Source: Pontibacter akesuensis
Lineage (GTDB): Bacteria; Bacteroidota; Bacteroidia; Cytophagales; Hymenobacteraceae
DNA length: 64,000 bases
NCBI RefSeq assembly: GCF_001611675.1
Contig: NZ_CP014766.1
Coordinates: forward strand, 372,001 to 436,000
Reading direction: 5' to 3'
Below the pieces are notes generated by a model, which saw only the letters and a program-made list of their open reading frames with translations, had not been told where the DNA came from and did no database searches. Of the stretch, positions 55,009 through 64,000 are shown piece after piece. Each line of letters opens with the position of its first letter. Position 1 is the first letter of the stretch. The position numbers were made by a program, and so were the translations under genes.

Positions 55009-55689
55009 ATGGAAGATCTGGAAGTATGGCGACGGTTTAAAGCAGGAAGTGAGGCAGATTTTACGCTGCTCTACAAGCTTTATGCCCCTGTGATGCTGCG
55101 CTACGGCTGCAAGATGACGCACGACCGCGATTTAGCCAAAGACTGTGTGCAGCAGGTTTTCTTCCAGGTTTGGAAAAGCAGGGAGAACCTCTCTACCCCA
55201 CCAAGTATAAAAAACTATCTTTTAAAGGCCCTCCGCTGTGAGTTGGGCAAAAAAGCCACTTTCAAAAGCAAGCATGAGCCTATTTCCGACGATGCAGTGC
55301 TGGGATCAGAGGCATCGTATGAAGCGACGCTTATAAAAGACCAGTCGTTCGAGTTCACCCAGAAAAAATTAACCCATCTGCTCACACTACTCCCCGAGCG
55401 GCAGCGCGAAGTTATTTTTCTGAAATATTACACTGGCCTGCAGTACGAGGAGATCGCGGATATCATGGAAATTGACCAGAAATCAGTGTACAAGCTTACG
55501 TACAAGGCCATCGATAAACTGCACCGGCTCTATAAAGAAAAGCCGCAGCCAGAGGCGCTTTCTCTCAGAGAGCGCATGAGCGGATTAGCCAGCACCTTCC
55601 AGCAAAAGGCCGGAGACATACCTACAAAAGTGGACGGTCTGCAAGTTTCTGGCAGCGGCACACTATTGCTGGGGCTAAAAAAACTGTAG
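55009..55689 (+). CDS. ECF sigma-70 factor (FecI-like)
   Basis: A 226-residue RNA polymerase sigma factor. Sigma region 2 spans about 20-90 (FTLLYKLYAPVMLRYGCKMTHDRDLAKDCVQQVFFQVW in part). Region 4 spans about 130-185 (LTLLPERQREVIFLKYYTGLQYEEIADIM with helix-turn-helix IEIDQKSVYKLTYKAID). A C-terminal extension of about 40 residues follows. It has no anti-sigma neighbour in the window. It could serve the orphan FecR at 40-41 kb or unlinked genes. Long structured leader upstream. Confidence 0.92.
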   Translation: MEDLEVWRRFKAGSEADFTLLYKLYAPVMLRYGCKMTHDRDLAKDCVQQVFFQVWKSRENLSTPPSIKNYLLKALRCELGKKATFKSKHEPISDDAVLGSEASYEATLIKDQSFEFTQKKLTHLLTLLPERQREVIFLKYYTGLQYEEIADIMEIDQKSVYKLTYKAIDKLHRLYKEKPQPEALSLRERMSGLASTFQQKAGDIPTKVDGLQVSGSGTLLLGLKKL

Positions 55690-55986: not shown

Positions 55987-57423
55987 ATGGCCGGATCTAT
56001 ACAAACCGATGTAAATGCTGCAAAAGCCAGCCACGCCAATTCCGTAAATGAAAACTACAGGGGCCCGCTGGTAACGGTAACGCTGCTTTTCTTTATGTGG
56101 GGCTTCATCACCTGCTTAAATGATATCCTTATTCCCAAATTGCAGCAAGTGTTTACGCTGGAACTGTGGCAGGCTATGCTCATCCAGACGGCCTTTTTCG
56201 GGGCTTATTTTATCGTTTCGTTGCTGTACTTTGTGCTGTCCATTACCAAAGGCGACCCAATACGCCGCATTGGCTATAAAAACGGCATCATTATCGGGCT
56301 GGTAGTGGCGGCCATCGGTTGCGCTTTGTTCTACCCGGCGGCTGACCAGCTGAGCTATACCTTCTTTCTGGGCGCCTTGTTCGTGCTGGCTTCGGGCATC
56401 ACGTTCCTGCAGATCGCGGCGAACCCCTACGTTACCATACTTGGCCCGGCCGAAGGCGCCGCCAGCCGACTGAACCTGACACAGGCCCTCAACTCCCTAG
56501 GCACTACAGTGGCCCCCATTATTGGCGGATACCTCATATTTGGCGCTGTGAACGCGCAGGACACGGGTGCCGACTCAGTTAAAATGCCTTACCTGGGCCT
56601 TGCTGCTGCCCTGCTCGCTATTGCCTTGCTCATAAAGATTGCGAAGCTGCCAAACATTCAGGGCGATGGCGATGGCGACGGTGACGCAAACCTCTCCCCG
56701 GACGCAGGCGCACTGCGCTACCGCCACCTCGTGCTGGGCATCATCTGTATTTTTGCCTATGTAGGTGGCGAAGTGGCCATCGGCAGTGCACTGATCAACT
56801 TCTTCAGATTACCTGAGATCGCCGGTCTGGATGAGACTCAGGCGGGCCACTTCCTTGCCTTTTACTGGGGTGGTGCCATGGTGGGTCGGTTCTTCGGCGC
56901 CGTAGCCCTGTCAAACATGCGCAATACGAGCTACAAGTACCTTATTATTGCCGGCATTGCGGCCGTGGTTTTTGTGCTGCTGTACACCATTTACGGTATG
57001 GATGAAGCGCTGATTGTACTGGGACTCATCGCGCTTAATTTTGTCGTGCTGATGCTGGGACGCTTTATTCCAAGCAAGACGCTCGGTTATTTTGCAGGCA
57101 CTGTAGTAGTGCTGCTGCTGTTCACCATCTTTGCCGAGGGCGCTGTAGCCATGTGGGCTGTTATTGCCATCGGCCTTTTCAATTCCATTATGTTCCCTAC
57201 TATCTTCACGCTGGCCGTTAAGGGCTTGGGCGTTCACACCAGTCAGGGCTCCTCGCTACTGGTGATGGCCATTGTAGGGGGCGCCATCGTGCCACCGCTG
57301 CAAGGACTTGTGGCTGACTTGTCGGGCAGCCTGCAACTCTCGTTCCTGGTGCCATTAATTTGCTACCTGTATATTCTATACTATGGCTTTGTTGGCTCAA
57401 AGGTAAAAGAAACTGCCATCTAA
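55987..57423 (+). CDS. sugar MFS transporter (FucP/glucose-galactose type)
   Basis: A 478-residue inner-membrane sugar:H+ symporter. About twelve TM helices. Diagnostic FucP-family segments are [19 protein letters not shown] (helix 1), [13 protein letters not shown] (helix 4), [34 protein letters not shown] and [14 protein letters not shown] Gly-Asp repeat (GDGDGDGD, about residue 218-226) lies in the central cytoplasmic loop. Would bring glucose, galactose or fucose-like monomers from the periplasm, matching the nearby Sus-type systems. A terminator follows. Confidence 0.93.
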
Positions 57424-57577: not shown

Positions 57578-60475
57578 CTAATACCGAAGTATAAAATCCG
57601 TGAGGTTGTCGCTGCGGTCCAGGCCAAGTCGTTTGCGCAGGCGGTAACGGCTTATTTCTACCCCGCGGACCGATATACTGAGCAGTTGCGCAATTTCCTT
57701 TGTCGTCAGGTTCAGGCGCAGGTAGGTGCTAAGCTTTATTTCCTGGGGCGTCATGTCGGGGTACTGTTCCTGCAGCCGCTTTGTAAAGTCGCCGTGCACG
57801 TGGTTGAAGTGCAACTCAAACTGGTTCCAGTGGGCATCGCTGGTAATGTTCTGCTCAATATTGCGGATAATCTTTTTCAGTTCATCGCTATGCCCGTTTA
57901 GCTCGCCATCTTTCAGCATGCTCTGCAGTTCCTGCTTCACGCTGCTTAGTACCTCATTTTTATTGATGAGGTGTATGGTGGAAGAGGTAAGTTCACGGTT
58001 CATGTGGTCGATCTCCGACTGCTGCTTCTCATTGCGGAGCCGGTTTATCTCCTGCTCGCTCATCTCGGTTGCCAGGCGCGCCTCTGTTTCCTTCTGGTTC
58101 AGCTTTTGCTCCTGGGCAAGTATAATCTGGTTTTTCTCGCGCTTAAACCGCTTGTCAACCTGATAAAAGAAGGTGCCCAGCATAAAAAAACCGGCCATGA
58201 TGTAAGCGGCAAAAGCCCAGCGGTTGCGGTAGAAAGGCGGCTCTACTTCAAATCTGAAACTCTCTGCCTCACTCACGGTTCCGTAAATGTTGCGCGCCTT
58301 TACATGAAATACATAGCGCCCCTCCGAGAGGTTGGTGTATTCCTTCTCTGTCTTCTCCGTCCATTCCGACCAGTTTTTATCGAAGCCCTCCAGGTAGTAC
58401 TGGTATTCTGTTTTCTCCGGGCTCTCGTAATAGGAAGAAGAGTAGACAAAACGCAGGGAATTAAACTGGTACGGCAGCGTCAGGCCCTCTATCTCGGCTA
58501 TCCTGCGCTTTGACAGGAGCAGCGAATCTGACTCCTGTGAGGTGTTGATCACTTTGGTCAGGTGGGTCCTGAAATCGGCCATGGCTTTTCCTTTGGCCGC
58601 GTTAAAATGTATAAACCCGTCTTTCGCACCGAACAGCACGTTGTTCAGGTCCAGCACCCGGATGTACTGCAGGTCATCGTTAAGCCTGGAGCGGATGTTG
58701 TTAAAAAGCCTGTCCTCAATAAGGGGTTTCCCGAACTTATCGAAGGTTATCTTTCCCACCCGCTCATCCGAGATAAAGTAGATGTTCCCCTGTATGTCCT
58801 CCTCCAGGTCGATGATGTGCTCCTCCTCATGAAAATAGCCTGATATTTCCTCGTCCCGCTGAAAATTGTCCGTGGCCGGGTTGTAACGGTACACGCCGTA
58901 AAGGGCCGGAAACACCAGCTCGTTGCGGATATGCTCCAAGCTTAGGAGCTGGTCTGATGGCAAGCCGTCTTTCGTGCTGTAAAAGCGCTTGGCAGCGATT
59001 TTCTCAAAAGCCGCATCAAACCTTATCCTGAAAATGCCTTTGTAACCGTGTGCAATCCAAAGCGTGCCTTCCCTGTCAAAACTTAGCACCCGCGACGATT
59101 CCTCAAAGCCCTTATACTTGCGTATCAATTCCATCTTGCCGTCTACCTCCCGCAAAAGGCTAATTCCGTTGTAGGAGCCAAGTATAAAATAGCCGGGCTT
59201 GCCCGGTATCTTCACGAAGTCCCAAGCTCCCTGGCCCGCAAACATTTCTGAGGCATAGTGATCGGCTACCACATAGGGCCCGTTATGGTGCCCCACGAGC
59301 AGTTTGTTTTTGTGGTTGCGCAACTGGTATACTTGCCCGGTACTGTTGGGCACGAGCGAAAAATCCATCCTGTCGCTTTGGGGCTGGGAAGCGAACAAGC
59401 CACTGTTTGTGCCCAGGTAGAGCCTGTCCTGGAAGTACAGCGCGGTATAGCCCGCCCCGGAAATTCCCTTCGTGCCATCTACGCGGCTGAAAGGTGAGCT
59501 AAGCTCCACCAGCGAAATGCCGTTGTTCAGCCCAAGCCACAGGTTCTCGTGCACATCCTGGTACAGGGTATGGATGGTGTTGTCAAAAAGCCCCTCCCTG
59601 CGCGACAGGTGCAGCAGCAGTTCCCCCTTTTTGTTCATCAGGTACAGCCCATTGTCCTGTGTCGCGATGGCAAACGTGCCATCTTTGAGCATAATTGCCT
59701 GATTAATGACCAGTTGGTTCAGGCCACTGCCTTCTGCCACGCTAAAAGGCCGCACCATGCTGCCATCGTACAGGAAAATCCCGTTTTGTGCCGTAAAGAC
59801 CAAGATCAGGTTTCGGTCGTAAGGCAGGATGGAGGCAATGCGCTGCTGGGCAAACACTTCCCCGCCTGGCAGCAACCGAAGTTTTTGGCCATCCACCAGA
59901 CTTAGCCCTACGTTCCACTCCAGCGTATAGAGGTTGTCGTGCAGCGGGAAAGACAGTTCCAGCGGGTTTGCCGGTTCTATTACCTGTATGGGTTTACCAG
60001 GTTGGTAGATGTAGATGTTCTTGAAGGTCAGGAAATAGATTTTCCCTTTGATTTCATAAATGCGCCATACTTCGTCGAAGTTCTGGTGCCGGAGAGGTAT
60101 CTTGTCTTTAAGGGAAGTATACTCCAGATTGCCGGTGGCATTAGGCGAAAAGTAACCGAAATCAGCCTGGCTACCCACATATACTTTCTTGTCAGCGCTG
60201 GCATAAACTGAGCGTACTTTAGTACCGTTGTTGACGGGGTAAAGATTCCAGACAGCGCCATCAAACTCAAGCAAGCCAAAGTTATTCGCCACATAGACAA
60301 CCTCACGATTATCCTGTATGATGCCCCAGCTCTGGATTCCCCCCTTAAAATCCTCAGTGCTGTAGTTCTTTACAAATGGATTCCCGAAGAAGGCAGGCTG
60401 TCCCATTCCCGTTACCGCGTAGCAGAAGCAGAGCAGAAGCAGCCAGAACCGATGCAAAGACAACAATTTTCTCAT
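57578..60475 (-). CDS. ligand-sensing beta-propeller regulator with Y_Y_Y domain and LuxR-type HTH
   Basis: A 965-residue one-component membrane regulator. Signal/anchor at 1-26. Periplasmic beta-propeller repeats run to about 680. A triple-tyrosine (Y_Y_Y) domain spans about 690-745 (YQYYLEGFDKNWSEWTEKTEKEYTNLSEGRYVFHVKARN in part), with one TM helix at about 757-778. A cytoplasmic coiled coil (about 780-860) and a C-terminal LuxR-like HTH (about 905-960, LTTKEIAQLLSISVRGVEISRYRLRKRL) follow. No kinase or receiver domains, so it signals directly to DNA. Divergent from a susC/susD pair whose promoter carries four direct repeats; a one-mismatch copy lies before its own start. Confidence 0.92.
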   Translation of the reverse strand: MRKLLSLHRFWLLLLCFCYAVTGMGQPAFFGNPFVKNYSTEDFKGGIQSWGIIQDNREVVYVANNFGLLEFDGAVWNLYPVNNGTKVRSVYASADKKVYVGSQADFGYFSPNATGNLEYTSLKDKIPLRHQNFDEVWRIYEIKGKIYFLTFKNIYIYQPGKPIQVIEPANPLELSFPLHDNLYTLEWNVGLSLVDGQKLRLLPGGEVFAQQRIASILPYDRNLILVFTAQNGIFLYDGSMVRPFSVAEGSGLNQLVINQAIMLKDGTFAIATQDNGLYLMNKKGELLLHLSRREGLFDNTIHTLYQDVHENLWLGLNNGISLVELSSPFSRVDGTKGISGAGYTALYFQDRLYLGTNSGLFASQPQSDRMDFSLVPNSTGQVYQLRNHKNKLLVGHHNGPYVVADHYASEMFAGQGAWDFVKIPGKPGYFILGSYNGISLLREVDGKMELIRKYKGFEESSRVLSFDREGTLWIAHGYKGIFRIRFDAAFEKIAAKRFYSTKDGLPSDQLLSLEHIRNELVFPALYGVYRYNPATDNFQRDEEISGYFHEEEHIIDLEEDIQGNIYFISDERVGKITFDKFGKPLIEDRLFNNIRSRLNDDLQYIRVLDLNNVLFGAKDGFIHFNAAKGKAMADFRTHLTKVINTSQESDSLLLSKRRIAEIEGLTLPYQFNSLRFVYSSSYYESPEKTEYQYYLEGFDKNWSEWTEKTEKEYTNLSEGRYVFHVKARNIYGTVSEAESFRFEVEPPFYRNRWAFAAYIMAGFFMLGTFFYQVDKRFKREKNQIILAQEQKLNQKETEARLATEMSEQEINRLRNEKQQSEIDHMNRELTSSTIHLINKNEVLSSVKQELQSMLKDGELNGHSDELKKIIRNIEQNITSDAHWNQFELHFNHVHGDFTKRLQEQYPDMTPQEIKLSTYLRLNLTTKEIAQLLSISVRGVEISRYRLRKRLGLDRSDNLTDFILRY

Positions 60476-60515: not shown

Positions 60516-60524
60516 TGATGTATT
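60516..60524. promoter_or_regulatory. single near-copy of the repeat before the regulator gene
   Basis: TGATGTATT differs by one base from the TGATGTAGT units at 60601-60654 and lies about 40 bp before the regulator's start. It is a possible autoregulatory half-site. Confidence 0.3.
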
Positions 60525-60600
60525 AAAAAAATCCTTAGAAAAGTTTTATCAAGCCTGAACACACCGCATTTAAAGGCTGCTAGAGCCCTTTTTACCTCTT

Positions 60601-60655
60601 TGATGTAGTCATGATGTAGTGGGAAAACAAGGGTTGATGTAGTCGTGATGTAGTC
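60601..60655 (+). promoter_or_regulatory. four-copy direct-repeat operator upstream of second susC
   Basis: TGATGTAGT occurs exactly at 60601, 60612, 60635 and 60646: two pairs with 11-bp period, the pairs offset by 34 bp. All copies therefore face nearly the same side of the helix. The array ends just before the promoter. The divergent neighbour encodes a LuxR-HTH regulator, the obvious candidate to bind it. Confidence 0.7.
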
Positions 60656-60661
60656 TTTTTA

Positions 60662-60692
60662 TTGCCTAAAGCAGGAAAAAACCTGTATTTGT
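60662..60692 (+). promoter_or_regulatory. candidate promoter of second susC
   Basis: TTG at 60662-60664 and TATTTGTA from 60685, about 20 bp apart, roughly fit the Bacteroidota -33/-7 layout. The -7 match is imperfect, as expected for a promoter that needs an activator bound at the adjacent repeats. Confidence 0.4.
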
Positions 60693-60728: not shown

Positions 60729-63700
60729 ATGAAAAAACTATTACTCATCCTGCTACTCCACATCACCGGAATAGCATATGCCCAGAACACCATCACCGGG
60801 CGGGTAACCACTGCCGGGGAGGGTATACCGCTGCCCGGCGTAAGTGTGGTGGTAACGGGTACTTCTATCGGCACCACCACCGACGCGCAGGGTGCCTACT
60901 CGCTAACTGCCCCTGCCTCCGCATCAACACTAAGCTTTTCCTTTATCGGTTTTGTAAAGCAGGAGGTTCCTATCGGAAACCAGGCTACCATTAATGTGCA
61001 GTTGGCCGAAGATACCAAAGCCCTGCAGGAAGTAGTGGTAGTGGGCTACGGCACCCAGCTCCGGCGGGAGGTGACCACGGCCATTTCTTCCGTGAAGCCC
61101 GAGGAAATAACACAGACGCCTGTGCAACGGGTAGAGCAGGCGCTACAGGGGCGCGTGGCCGGTGTGCAGGTAACCAATATCTCCGGACAGCCTGGCGATG
61201 CGCCCACTGTGCGTATCCGCGGTATCGGCACTTCAGGCAGCGCCGCGCCGCTCTATATAGTGGATGGTTTTCCGGTGGGAGGCATTGACTACCTGAACCC
61301 GGCAGACATCGAGTCGATGGAGGTGCTGAAAGATGCGGCCTCTGCCGCCATTTATGGGGCACGCGGCGCAAACGGTGTGGTGCTAATCACAACCAGGAGC
61401 GGCTCCAGGGACGGTAAAATGCATGTCTCCTACGACGGCTACGTGGGTTTCCAGAACCCATGGCGCAGAATGGAACTGCTCAATGCCCGGGAGTATGCCG
61501 TGATGATGAATGAGGGAGCGGCAAACGCAGGAAACGCCTTACCCTACCCCGATGTAACTCAATTTGGAGAGGGCACGGACTGGCAGGAAGCGCTTTTCGA
61601 AAAGAATGCCCCGATAATGAACCACCAGATTTCAGTTAACGGCGGCACTGACAAGAATGCATATGCGGCAGCTTTTTCGCTTTTCGACCAGAATGGCATT
61701 GTGGGTGGCGACAAGTCAAACTTTAAGCGCTACACGGCCCGCATCAACTCCGATAACAAGGTGAAAGAATACCTGCGCGTGGGCACAAATCTGGCCTACT
61801 CCCATATCGACAGAAGAGCCATTGATCCAAACCAGGAATTCGGCGGACTGCTGAGCAACGCCATCAACCTGGACCCGCTCACGCCGATTATTGTCTCTGA
61901 CCCGAATTTATTGAACATGTCTCCTTACAACAACCCCAATGTGGTGAGAGACGCTAACGGGAATCCTTACGGTATCTCCTCTGCCGTAGCACAGGAAATT
62001 GTGAACCCATTGGCGCGACTGGCCGTGCTGAATGGCCGCACAAGAGTAGACAAGCTGGTGGGTAACCTTTATGGAGAGGTTGACATTACGGAAGGATTAT
62101 CTTTCCGCTCGACTTTCGGTTTGGACCTCGCCTTTGTCTCAACCAACAATTTCAACCCGCTCTACTACCTCAACCGCTCCACAGCCAACAACAACTCGCT
62201 TGTTTCGAAGGGCGTGGACCGCTACTACAACTGGCAGGCTGAGAACTACTTCAAGTATAACAAGACCTTCGGTGAGCATGATCTGGGCCTGACGGCTGGA
62301 ACATCGGCGCTGCGCTTTAACTACGAAAGCCTGTTTGCGTCCAATACTGGTCTCGTGTCGAACGACCCGAACCTGGCTTACCTGAACACGGCCGTTGACC
62401 GCGGCGCAGCCATCGCGAATGGTGCTTTCAACGAGCGCGCTTTGCTTTCCTTCTACGGGAGGGCCACCTATGGCTATAAGGGCAAATACCTGTTTTCGGC
62501 AAGTATAAGACGCGACGGTTCCTCCCGCTTCGGGTCTAACAACCCCTATGCCACCTTCCCTTCCGTATCGGCAGGCTGGGTGATCTCGGATGAGGACTTC
62601 TTTCCTGAGTCTGACCTGCTCAATTTCGTGAAGCTGCGTGCTTCCTGGGGCCAGAACGGAAACGAGGAGATTGGCGGGGCCTACCCGTGGGCCTCTACAA
62701 TCGGTGTGGGCAGAGGCTACAGTTTCTATAACCCCGGTGGCGTTGGCTACCAGAGTGGCGCTGCACCCGAGTATATCGCCAACCCAGACCTTAAATGGGA
62801 AGCATCCGAGCAGACGGATATCGGCCTGGACCTGGCACTCTTCAACAACAACCTAAGAGTAACGGCAGATTATTACATTAAGCGCACCAAAGGCCTCTTG
62901 CTTTACGCACCGATACCGGCCACACCGGGCAACAACCCGCCGCTGGTGAATGGTGGTGAGGTGGAGAACAAGGGCTTTGAGCTTGCCATCAATTACAGCA
63001 ACGAGATTAACGACTTCGGATACGCTGTTGGCCTGAACGGAAGCATCAACAAAAATGAATTCCTGAGCATCAACAACGCAGAAGGCGTACTGCAGGGAGC
63101 GTCCATCTCTACCTACGGCACCGTGTCCCGAAGCGAAGTAGGCCAACCCATCGCCTACTTCTGGGGCTACCAGACCAATGGTATTTTCCAAACGCCTGAA
63201 GCGGTTGCGGCCCATGTAAACTCGGAGGGAGCCTTACTGCAACCGGCGGCACAGCCCGGTGATGTGCGTTTCGTGGATTTCAACAACGACGGCATCATCA
63301 ACGACCAGGACCGCACCAGGATCGGCAACCCTACGCCTAAAGCGGTGCTGGGCTTCACGCTCGACCTGAACTACAAAGGCTTTGACATCAATGCTTTTGT
63401 GAATGGGGCCTTTGGCCATCAGATCTTCAACGGTACACGCCGCCACGACCTTTCCACCTCCAACATGCAGTCTATTTACCTAAACCGCTGGACAGGCGAG
63501 GGCAGCACCAACGAGTACCCGCGCTTTACCTGGAACGACGCCAACGGCAACTACAAGCGCATCTCAGACCTGTACATCGAGGATGGTGATTACGTGCGAC
63601 TGAAGACGCTGCAACTGGGTTACAACTTTGCCCCTGCTATGCTGGAGACACTGCACCTGCAAAAAGTACGCTTGTACATAGCAGCTGACAACCTCGTGAC

Positions 63701-63824
63701 CTTAACCGATTATACGGGCTTCGACCCTGAGATCGGAGCACGTGGTAGCCTGGATATCGGTATCGACCGGGGCATATATCCTCAGGCAAGAACTTTCAGA
63801 CTAGGCGTTAACGCAACATTTTAA
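60729..63824 (+). CDS. susC: SusC/RagA family TonB-dependent receptor (second system)
   Basis: A 1031-residue outer-membrane importer. Signal peptide MKKLLLILLLHITGIAYAQ. A carboxypeptidase-D-like domain (TITGRVTTAGEGIPLPGVSV) is followed by the SusC signature ALQEVVVVGYGTQ, a plug with VRIRGIGTSGSAAPLYIVDGFPV and DAASAAIYGARGANGVVLITT, and a barrel ending RLGVNATF. Unlike the SusC at 36.7-40.0 kb it has no STN domain, so control is probably through the divergent Y_Y_Y regulator rather than FecR/sigma. The SusD gene follows after 11 bp. Substrate not evident. Confidence 0.95.
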   Translation: MKKLLLILLLHITGIAYAQNTITGRVTTAGEGIPLPGVSVVVTGTSIGTTTDAQGAYSLTAPASASTLSFSFIGFVKQEVPIGNQATINVQLAEDTKALQEVVVVGYGTQLRREVTTAISSVKPEEITQTPVQRVEQALQGRVAGVQVTNISGQPGDAPTVRIRGIGTSGSAAPLYIVDGFPVGGIDYLNPADIESMEVLKDAASAAIYGARGANGVVLITTRSGSRDGKMHVSYDGYVGFQNPWRRMELLNAREYAVMMNEGAANAGNALPYPDVTQFGEGTDWQEALFEKNAPIMNHQISVNGGTDKNAYAAAFSLFDQNGIVGGDKSNFKRYTARINSDNKVKEYLRVGTNLAYSHIDRRAIDPNQEFGGLLSNAINLDPLTPIIVSDPNLLNMSPYNNPNVVRDANGNPYGISSAVAQEIVNPLARLAVLNGRTRVDKLVGNLYGEVDITEGLSFRSTFGLDLAFVSTNNFNPLYYLNRSTANNNSLVSKGVDRYYNWQAENYFKYNKTFGEHDLGLTAGTSALRFNYESLFASNTGLVSNDPNLAYLNTAVDRGAAIANGAFNERALLSFYGRATYGYKGKYLFSASIRRDGSSRFGSNNPYATFPSVSAGWVISDEDFFPESDLLNFVKLRASWGQNGNEEIGGAYPWASTIGVGRGYSFYNPGGVGYQSGAAPEYIANPDLKWEASEQTDIGLDLALFNNNLRVTADYYIKRTKGLLLYAPIPATPGNNPPLVNGGEVENKGFELAINYSNEINDFGYAVGLNGSINKNEFLSINNAEGVLQGASISTYGTVSRSEVGQPIAYFWGYQTNGIFQTPEAVAAHVNSEGALLQPAAQPGDVRFVDFNNDGIINDQDRTRIGNPTPKAVLGFTLDLNYKGFDINAFVNGAFGHQIFNGTRRHDLSTSNMQSIYLNRWTGEGSTNEYPRFTWNDANGNYKRISDLYIEDGDYVRLKTLQLGYNFAPAMLETLHLQKVRLYIAADNLVTLTDYTGFDPEIGARGSLDIGIDRGIYPQARTFRLGVNATF

Positions 63825-63835
63825 GAAGCCAAACC

Positions 63836-64000
63836 ATGAAAAATATACTTAGAAATACTCCTAAACTGTTGCTGGCGGCCATACTTGTCTGTGGCTCCAC
63901 CGGCTGCGAAGATTTCCTGGACCTACAGCCAAAGGACACCCGAACAGAGGATAACTTTTTCAGAACAGAGGCGGATGCAAGGGAAGCGCTCATCAGCGTG
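63836..64000 (+). CDS. susD: SusD/RagB family lipoprotein, C-terminus cut by window edge
   Basis: Only the first 55 residues are visible. A signal sequence ends in a lipobox-like GSTGC, followed by EDFLDLQPKDTRTEDNFFRTEADAREAL in part. This is the standard SusD start, where the LDxxP motif leads into the first helix. It follows susC by 11 bp on the same strand, so it is the partner of that transporter. Confidence 0.9.
   Translation, partial: MKNILRNTPKLLLAAILVCGSTGCEDFLDLQPKDTRTEDNFFRTEADAREALISV

Follow-up and report, generated by a model that had tools for sequence, protein, structure and literature searches.

The window, the whole stretch of 64,000 nucleotides that was analysed, contains two divergent genes separated by an intergenic region of 253 bp. 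The gene on the minus strand encodes a regulator, and the gene on the plus strand encodes a SusC-type transporter, so the regulator adjoins a SusC/SusD-type glycan locus. All five boxes described below are located in this intergenic region. The features are as follows.

57578..60475, minus strand: regulator of 965 amino acids (Pfam, hydropathy and predicted structures)
60516..60524, plus strand: distal box 0, TGATGTATT, 85 bp ahead of box 1, 40 bp away from the regulator start codon
60601..60609, plus strand: putative operator box 1, TGATGTAGT, an exact copy, kept in family loci
60612..60620, plus strand: putative operator box 2, TGATGTAGT, offset +11
60635..60643, plus strand: putative operator box 3, TGATGTAGT, offset +34 (33 in most held-out relatives)
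60646..60654, plus strand: putative operator box 4, TGATGTAGT, offset +45
60662..60664, plus strand: -33-like TTG of the susC promoter, 23 of 24 arrays having G at the equivalent offset
60684..60691, plus strand: -7-like element TGTATTTG of the susC promoter, its register supported by comparison
60729..63824, plus strand: susC-type TonB-dependent transporter (SusC/RagA by NCBIfam), first gene of a presumed beta-glucan operon
63836..64000, plus strand: start of susD, the operon running past the window end

Downstream of susC the operon continues with SusD, a PKD lipoprotein, a GH16 protein with a sorting tail, a GH3 and a second GH16 protein, and this content (GH16, GH3) suggests a beta-1,3- or mixed-linkage glucan as substrate. 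The order susC, SusD, PKD, GH16 and GH3 recurs in five of six related loci for which longer flanks were available (L061-L065 and L067); no GH3 was found in the long flank of L062, the other five having one. Just beyond the regulator lie genes for an ECF-type sigma factor (55009-55689) and for a glucose/galactose-type MFS transporter (55987-57423), and no homologue of the latter was detected (tblastn, 1e-8) in the flanks of the best 80 named loci.

The four TGATGTAGT copies are identical and arranged head-to-tail in steps of 11, 23 and 11 bp, corresponding to offsets 0/11/34/45. A preliminary description had reported them at 60601, 60612, 60635 and 60646, together with a one-mismatch copy ahead of the divergent regulator gene. 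Both observations were confirmed, the latter copy being TGATGTATT at 60516, and the repetition exceeds chance, as four copies of some 9-mer arose in only 2 of 5000 dinucleotide shuffles of the 253-bp region. When the own genome (4.83 Mb) was searched for the paired motif, the mismatch-free two-box pattern was present in two places, both in the window array, and four further places matched with one mismatch. Since the array stands at only one promoter of this genome, the regulon cannot be cross-checked there.

Pfam detected Reg_prop and Y_Y_Y in the regulator, and neither a histidine kinase or receiver domain nor an ATPase domain. Hydropathy peaks at residues 4-22 and 753-771, and the protein is laid out as a hydrophobic N-terminus (4-22), propellers and Y_Y_Y up to about residue 744, a transmembrane segment (753-771) and a coiled coil. 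The predicted model of the entire protein (mean pLDDT 84.6) is closest in fold to the periplasmic heparin sensor BT4663 (4a2l, E 8e-34, TM 0.75 by target). At the C-terminus, the predicted structure places a LuxR-type helix-turn-helix (HTH) at residues 910-964 with the recognition helix at 936-949, which contains RGVEISRYR. Pfam yielded no GerE match for the regulator at E 0.001, a search of PDB sequences with the C-terminal profile yielded no match at 0.01, and NCBIfam indicated a weak TtrR stretch at 898-951 (E 1e-4), far below the TtrR cut-off. The model of residues 778-965 (pLDDT 88.6) shows a long helix followed by a four-helix C-terminal domain. Its best Foldseek match is LiaR (4wt0, E 0.07, TM 0.77 by target), and no Foldseek match of the C-terminal model reached an E under 0.001. 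The C-terminal domain model aligns with DosR at Z 8.6 and with NarL at Z 7.7; helical non-HTH structures (Tiam2 and others) likewise come near Z 8 via their long helices, so that Z alone is weak evidence for an HTH. The LuxR-type assignment is therefore based on the fold and the helix order, the GerE fold comprising four helices with the third in recognition. Taken together, Pfam, hydropathy and the predicted topology and HTH bear out the earlier view of a kinase-free membrane propeller/HTH neighbour: the regulator is predicted to be a membrane one-component protein with a periplasmic sensor, a membrane helix and a C-terminal HTH.

We then compared the locus across 204 genomes of the family. 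A regulator homologue at E 1e-150 or better is encoded in 46 of them, and a close orthologue (about 60% identity) in 17, one of which (G141) has it in two pieces with a stop between. A divergent susC-type frame lies beside the regulator in 15 of the 17 orthologue loci; in G141 (L028) the fetched stretch ends inside an apparent susC start. Sixteen of the 17 loci show the array clearly, matching 31 or more of the 36 letters and having a step of 22 or 23 bp from box 2 to box 3. In the remaining locus, L025 of genome G137, boxes 1 and 4 are lost. This regulator (L025/L066) has no susC beside it and is the only one without a locus gene in the 14.8 kb fetched on its upstream side, and it is beside this one that the array has decayed. 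The same genome carries two opposite-strand arrays about 1.4 kb apart (G137:C1:800695 and 802065, scores 38 and 52) at another site, before SusC-type genes.

Among the 16 loci, pairwise identity amounts to 86-99% in the boxes, box 3 being the most conserved (98.6%), to 43 and 58% in the 2-bp linkers, to 33% in the central 13 bp and to 38-45% in the flanks. Boxes and spacing are kept in 16 of the 17 orthologous loci; a lack of such conservation, which the preliminary description had named as refuting its reading, was not observed. The presence of the motif likewise follows that of the regulator. The two-box pattern TGATGTANTNNTGATGTA occurs at 39 places in 17 of the 204 family genomes, that is, in 16 of the 17 orthologue genomes versus one of the 187 others. 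The orthologue genome without it (G183) carries TGTTGTA variants, and the one match among the 187 others (G027) falls within a SusD-like reading frame. The three-box pattern occurs at 18 places in 13 genomes, all of them orthologue genomes. Neither pattern was found in G144 and G146, two genomes of the same genus as most carriers that are devoid of the orthologue. Fisher tests for co-occurrence gave p values of 1e-21 (two-box) and 2e-17, with relatedness ignored. As nulls we took genomes lacking the orthologue, together with the reverse strand and shuffles; the backwards pattern was not used, because TGATGTAGT reversed equals itself and can match the same arrays. Thirteen sampled family paralogues (38-40% identity) showed no like array in their first 1.2 kb, two of them slightly exceeding the best of their own six shuffles with unlike letters, and no lattice was seen in four paralogue loci with longer flank.

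To extend the comparison beyond the family, 390 genomes of the order were included, 71 of which contain a regulator homologue at E 1e-190. Arrays are visible beside several homologues in other families, and degenerate in a group upstream of lipoprotein genes. The strict three-box pattern was found in 10 of the 390 genomes. Six carriers are outside the family, and in five of these (G212, G422, G436, G501 and G369, the last with a homologue of 36% identity) it lies between the homologue and a susC-type gene. In G385 a full array (L212, G385:C19:18219, score 53) was observed with no regulator or locus-gene homologue in the 9 kb fetched. The degenerate lattice before a lipoprotein gene was noted in L101, L102, L104, L106, L107, L109-L112, L114, L115 and L131, mostly from family f19. 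In most of them the slots read TGATGAAT, TGATGTAT, nGATGAAA and TGTAGnnn, mostly under the lattice-score threshold introduced below, and look as if they had evolved separately.

For the held-out test, a matrix trained on the 16 family loci alone was applied to the 600 bp upstream of the regulator with a score threshold of 5. The loci were the best 80 of a longer list from named genomes, and three of them (L122, L123 and L126) were dropped as training loci, leaving 77. Upstream of the regulator, 46 of these 77 score above 5. On the reverse strand none of the 77 exceeds 5 and two exceed 0, and 0.13% of 1540 shuffles exceed 5. As the held-out loci are partly close relatives, the 46 do not represent 46 independent events. 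The outcome follows identity to the regulator: among these best-80 loci, all 21 at 40% or more are positive, 17 of 25 at 37-39% and 8 of 31 below. Pitch 11 combined with offset 33 collects the most loci (40), followed by offsets 44 (32) and 30 (26), other offsets scoring too because any good pair counts; the best lattice is 0/11/33/44. These arrays span Cytophagales families, Saprospiraceae, Lewinellaceae and, in one weak case, Chitinophagaceae.

The divergent flank (up to 5 kb) of the 46 positives, all among the best 80 loci, contains a susC-type gene in 37 and GH16 in nine, with both in two. Homologues of susC or GH16 are found downstream of the regulator in 23 of the 31 best-80 loci without an upstream array; in L147, L148 and L165 they are on the opposite strand. 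Nine of these 31 loci have the array downstream of the regulator, in eight at 81-112 bp from where the regulator match ends and in one 2 kb away, and the opposite strand on this side scores 1.6 at most. The nine belong to Bacteroidales, Prolixibacteraceae, Marinilabiliales and unplaced records; seven have susC or GH16 homologues downstream, and L172 and L195 end early. An array thus lies on one side or the other of the regulator in 55 of the 77 held-out loci among the best 80. The 22 with no such array on either side comprise 12 Flavobacterium-type loci, which have another box, four Pontibacter paralogues and six others.

The comparison thus shows a unit of four 9-bp boxes, arranged head-to-tail with an 11-bp lattice (0, 11, 32-35 and a further 11, with 33 commonest), that is inherited with the regulator and stands before the presumed target gene even when the gene order differs. 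Judging from this sequence evidence, the array very probably serves the neighbouring membrane-bound one-component regulator as its operator, and this regulator would switch on the glucan operon. The direct glycan-to-DNA switch envisaged in the preliminary description is thereby supported as far as the candidate operator is concerned.

The function of the distal box leaves more room. In all family loci except L016 (16 of 17), box 1 is preceded at 84-86 bp by the best distal box, which differs from TGATGTAAT in no more than two letters. Forty-five held-out array loci had enough upstream sequence; among these best-80 loci, a box scoring above 7 is present within 24-130 bp in 31 (14% in shuffles), and it lies at 84-89 bp in 18, clustering at 86-88. 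The distal box could serve autoregulation of the regulator gene, with the four-box array alone serving susC and no looping between them, which is compatible with the array being the operator of susC; we rate the chance of this only slightly below even. In its favour, the first ATG of the regulator stands at an almost constant distance from the distal box (37-41 bp in 13 of 16 loci), and eight of nine arrays remote from the regulator lack a distal box at 80-92 bp. On the other hand, the nearly constant 84-86 bp to box 1 in the family and the 86-88 cluster in the held-out best-80 loci are near eight helical turns, and tandem loci, in which the array does not adjoin the regulator promoter, have best distal boxes at 67-68 bp (five of eight) and 57 bp (four of seven), several of them weak. 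By eye, a -7-like TATTTG stretch ends a few bases from the regulator start codon in several loci of genus g5, which suggests that the leader of the regulator gene is very short or absent there.

Promoters of Bacteroidetes follow the consensus TTTG / TAnnTTTG, and TGTATTTG deviates from the -7 element TAnnTTTG by one mismatch. We examined the promoter geometry in 24 arrays (16 family and eight remote). With offsets 26-49 searched, the best -7-like element begins 38-41 bp past the start of box 4 in 21 of 24, and in 23 of 24 a G occupies offset 18, where the -33 element ends. In the window, 7 bp separate the end of box 4 from the -33 TTG, against 6-7 bp across arrays, and no box overlaps the -33 or -7 element. 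The proposed position of the repeats next to the -33 region of the susC promoter was thus borne out, and since box 4 adjoins this region, the placement suits activation. A site just upstream of -33 is the usual place of an activator. The regulator might conversely act as a repressor that holds susC off without glycan and leaves upon binding it, which we regard as unlikely given this geometry and the fact that the characterised SusR activates, according to PMC3878776.

Further arrays in carriers of genus g5, with nine proteins tested, precede GH16 genes (three), SusC-type transporters (five) and a gene for a CBM56 protein (one); in L047 the SusC-type frame begins about 680 bp from the remote array. 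CBM56 is a beta-1,3-glucan binder. The coherence of these remote targets (susC, GH16, CBM56) argues for a single glucan regulon, presumably for beta-1,3-glucan. In L050 (G141:C77:142529) an array with three good boxes follows a DAHP-synthase-like frame, and no GH16 frame was seen where related genomes have GH16; this array is possibly an operator remnant.

The recognition helix is nearly invariant where the boxes are TGATGTA and is changed where the boxes change. In Flavobacterium-type loci the helix reads RGVEDTRYR in 12 of 12 (among the best 80), no four-box lattice passed the matrix-free score, and an invariant CCGTAGTCAAACCGTA, i.e. two half-changed boxes at an 11-bp pitch, is found behind the regulator, towards the GH16 gene. 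Family f30, drawn around a SusF_SusE-bearing genome and probably corresponding to Bacteroidaceae, has a homologue in 15 of 151 genomes, and RG[VI]ETIRYR is accompanied by TGACGTA-type lattices in seven of nine of its loci. A canonical SusR locus, sought through SusF_SusE, was not found: that genome, G743, is the sole SusF_SusE-bearing one among 247, and reading the frames at its SusF_SusE locus showed a LacI-like one but none of the Y_Y_Y type.

Could another transcription factor bind the array, with the neighbouring regulator kept by linkage? The genome contains many other regulators; still, we consider this quite improbable, because family arrays, even those far from the regulator, occur only in orthologue genomes, because G144 and G146 have neither, and because the boxes differ where the recognition helix differs. 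A neutral origin by tandem duplication, or a mobile repeat, for which the identity of the copies in the window might speak, is a practically negligible explanation, as the spacing is conserved and the spacer sequence is not, across several families and in a single orientation; chance or a neutral repeat was rejected on the shuffles, the held-out test and the box-versus-spacer identity.

The correlation between helix and box was followed with a matrix-free lattice score over 152 loci, whose reverse-orientation control had a 99th percentile of 19.5 and a maximum of 21.5. This score beats the control in only 65 of the 152 loci and is less sensitive than the matrix. In arrays above the 99th percentile, the majority letter at box position 4 is T in 51 of 56 with Ile at residue 941, 15 of these Ile loci being training loci, and C in all seven with Thr 941. 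Regulators with ETS have no array in 17 of 17 cases, and cases with Ser or Gly 941 are few and mostly below the lattice threshold. A TGACGTA two-box pattern occurs in two of five f30 genomes, beside the regulator in G743 and elsewhere in G782; as backwards controls are as frequent in f30 genomes, this test lends no support to a code. The residue-941 label changes 13 times on a tree of 148 proteins, and since the box changes amount to about three to five events, each in one clade, the code stays hypothetical. Tentatively, and with somewhat greater doubt than belief, we put forward a readable operator code for a class of glycan-sensing membrane regulators in several orders of Bacteroidota. Four NNNNGTANT boxes at 0/11/-/33/44 (11-bp lattice, middle slot empty) and a helically phased distal box would be bound by a membrane-tethered assembly. 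Residue 941 would set the first half-box: Ile with TGAT, Thr (in ETI) with TGAC, Asp with CACC/AACC and perhaps Ser with TGCN and Gly with AA[AT]C. If the code is true, the protein sequence of such regulators could be used to predict their operators and regulons.

The regulator resembles several known systems in part. With hybrid two-component systems (HTCS) such as BT4663 it shares the periplasmic propeller/Y_Y_Y sensor fold, and HTCS operators are likewise predicted to be direct repeats, on average 21 bp apart (PMC3878776). In contrast to HTCS, the window regulator lacks kinase and receiver and has a LuxR-type instead of an AraC-like HTH. The predicted C-terminal fold is that of the HTH domains of LiaR, DosR, NarL and GerE, whereas this NarL/LuxR-type HTH sits on a membrane protein without a receiver domain. 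MalT of Escherichia coli is cytoplasmic and has a LuxR-type HTH. It is a sugar-responsive activator whose oligomers act cooperatively on several sites, four in malPp800 and pulAp, but it is a STAND ATPase with an unrelated sensor and another box (PMC4381067, PMC10427625); Pfam detected no such ATPase trait in the window regulator.

Closest are the SusR-like regulators (SusR BT3705 and SusR2-4), which according to PMC3878776 are also membrane regulators with periplasmic sensing, a C-terminal HTH, SusC/SusD neighbours and predicted direct repeats. They are called poorly studied there, SusR binding maltose and activating. However, their two predicted boxes are 67 or 77 bp apart, whereas the window has boxes at 0/11/34/45 and a distal box at 85; the two-repeat arrangement was not found in the window array, while the distal distance of 67 in tandem loci equals one of the SusR spacings. 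The preliminary description had called the binding sites of this regulator class poorly defined. This applies insofar as the SusR-like sites are predictions only in the papers found, and has to be qualified insofar as direct-repeat motifs were already predicted in 2013 for four Bacteroides SusR-like regulators (PMC3878776). Among further sources, PMC10269533 gives Y_Y_Y in 7.7% of transmembrane regulators, PMC13188888 has LuxR-annotated genes heading many laminarin clusters, and PMC12125979 and PMC5698469 concern other regulators. No description of the four-box array was found among the papers listed by the literature searches, and a string search for TGATGTAGT returned no Bacteroidota-regulator paper among the matches listed. 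Three things are new: the four-box lattice with its 11-bp pitch, the depth of this arrangement across orders and, tentatively, the correlation between helix and box.

We infer the following mechanism. Beta-1,3-glucan fragments would bind the periplasmic propeller/Y_Y_Y sensor, and dimers or a tetramer of the regulator would place one LuxR-type HTH per box. Box 4 would contact RNA polymerase, and the susC-susD-PKD-GH16-GH3-GH16 operon would be switched on. Some eight helical turns upstream, the distal box may receive a further protomer via DNA bending or control the regulator's own gene.

Membrane one-component regulators must locate their DNA while tied to the membrane. A sharply defined, promoter-proximal operator common to several orders would provide probes for footprinting and would allow regulons to be read from genomes, and the natural variation of helix and box may serve as material for tests of a recognition code and for glucan-inducible promoters.
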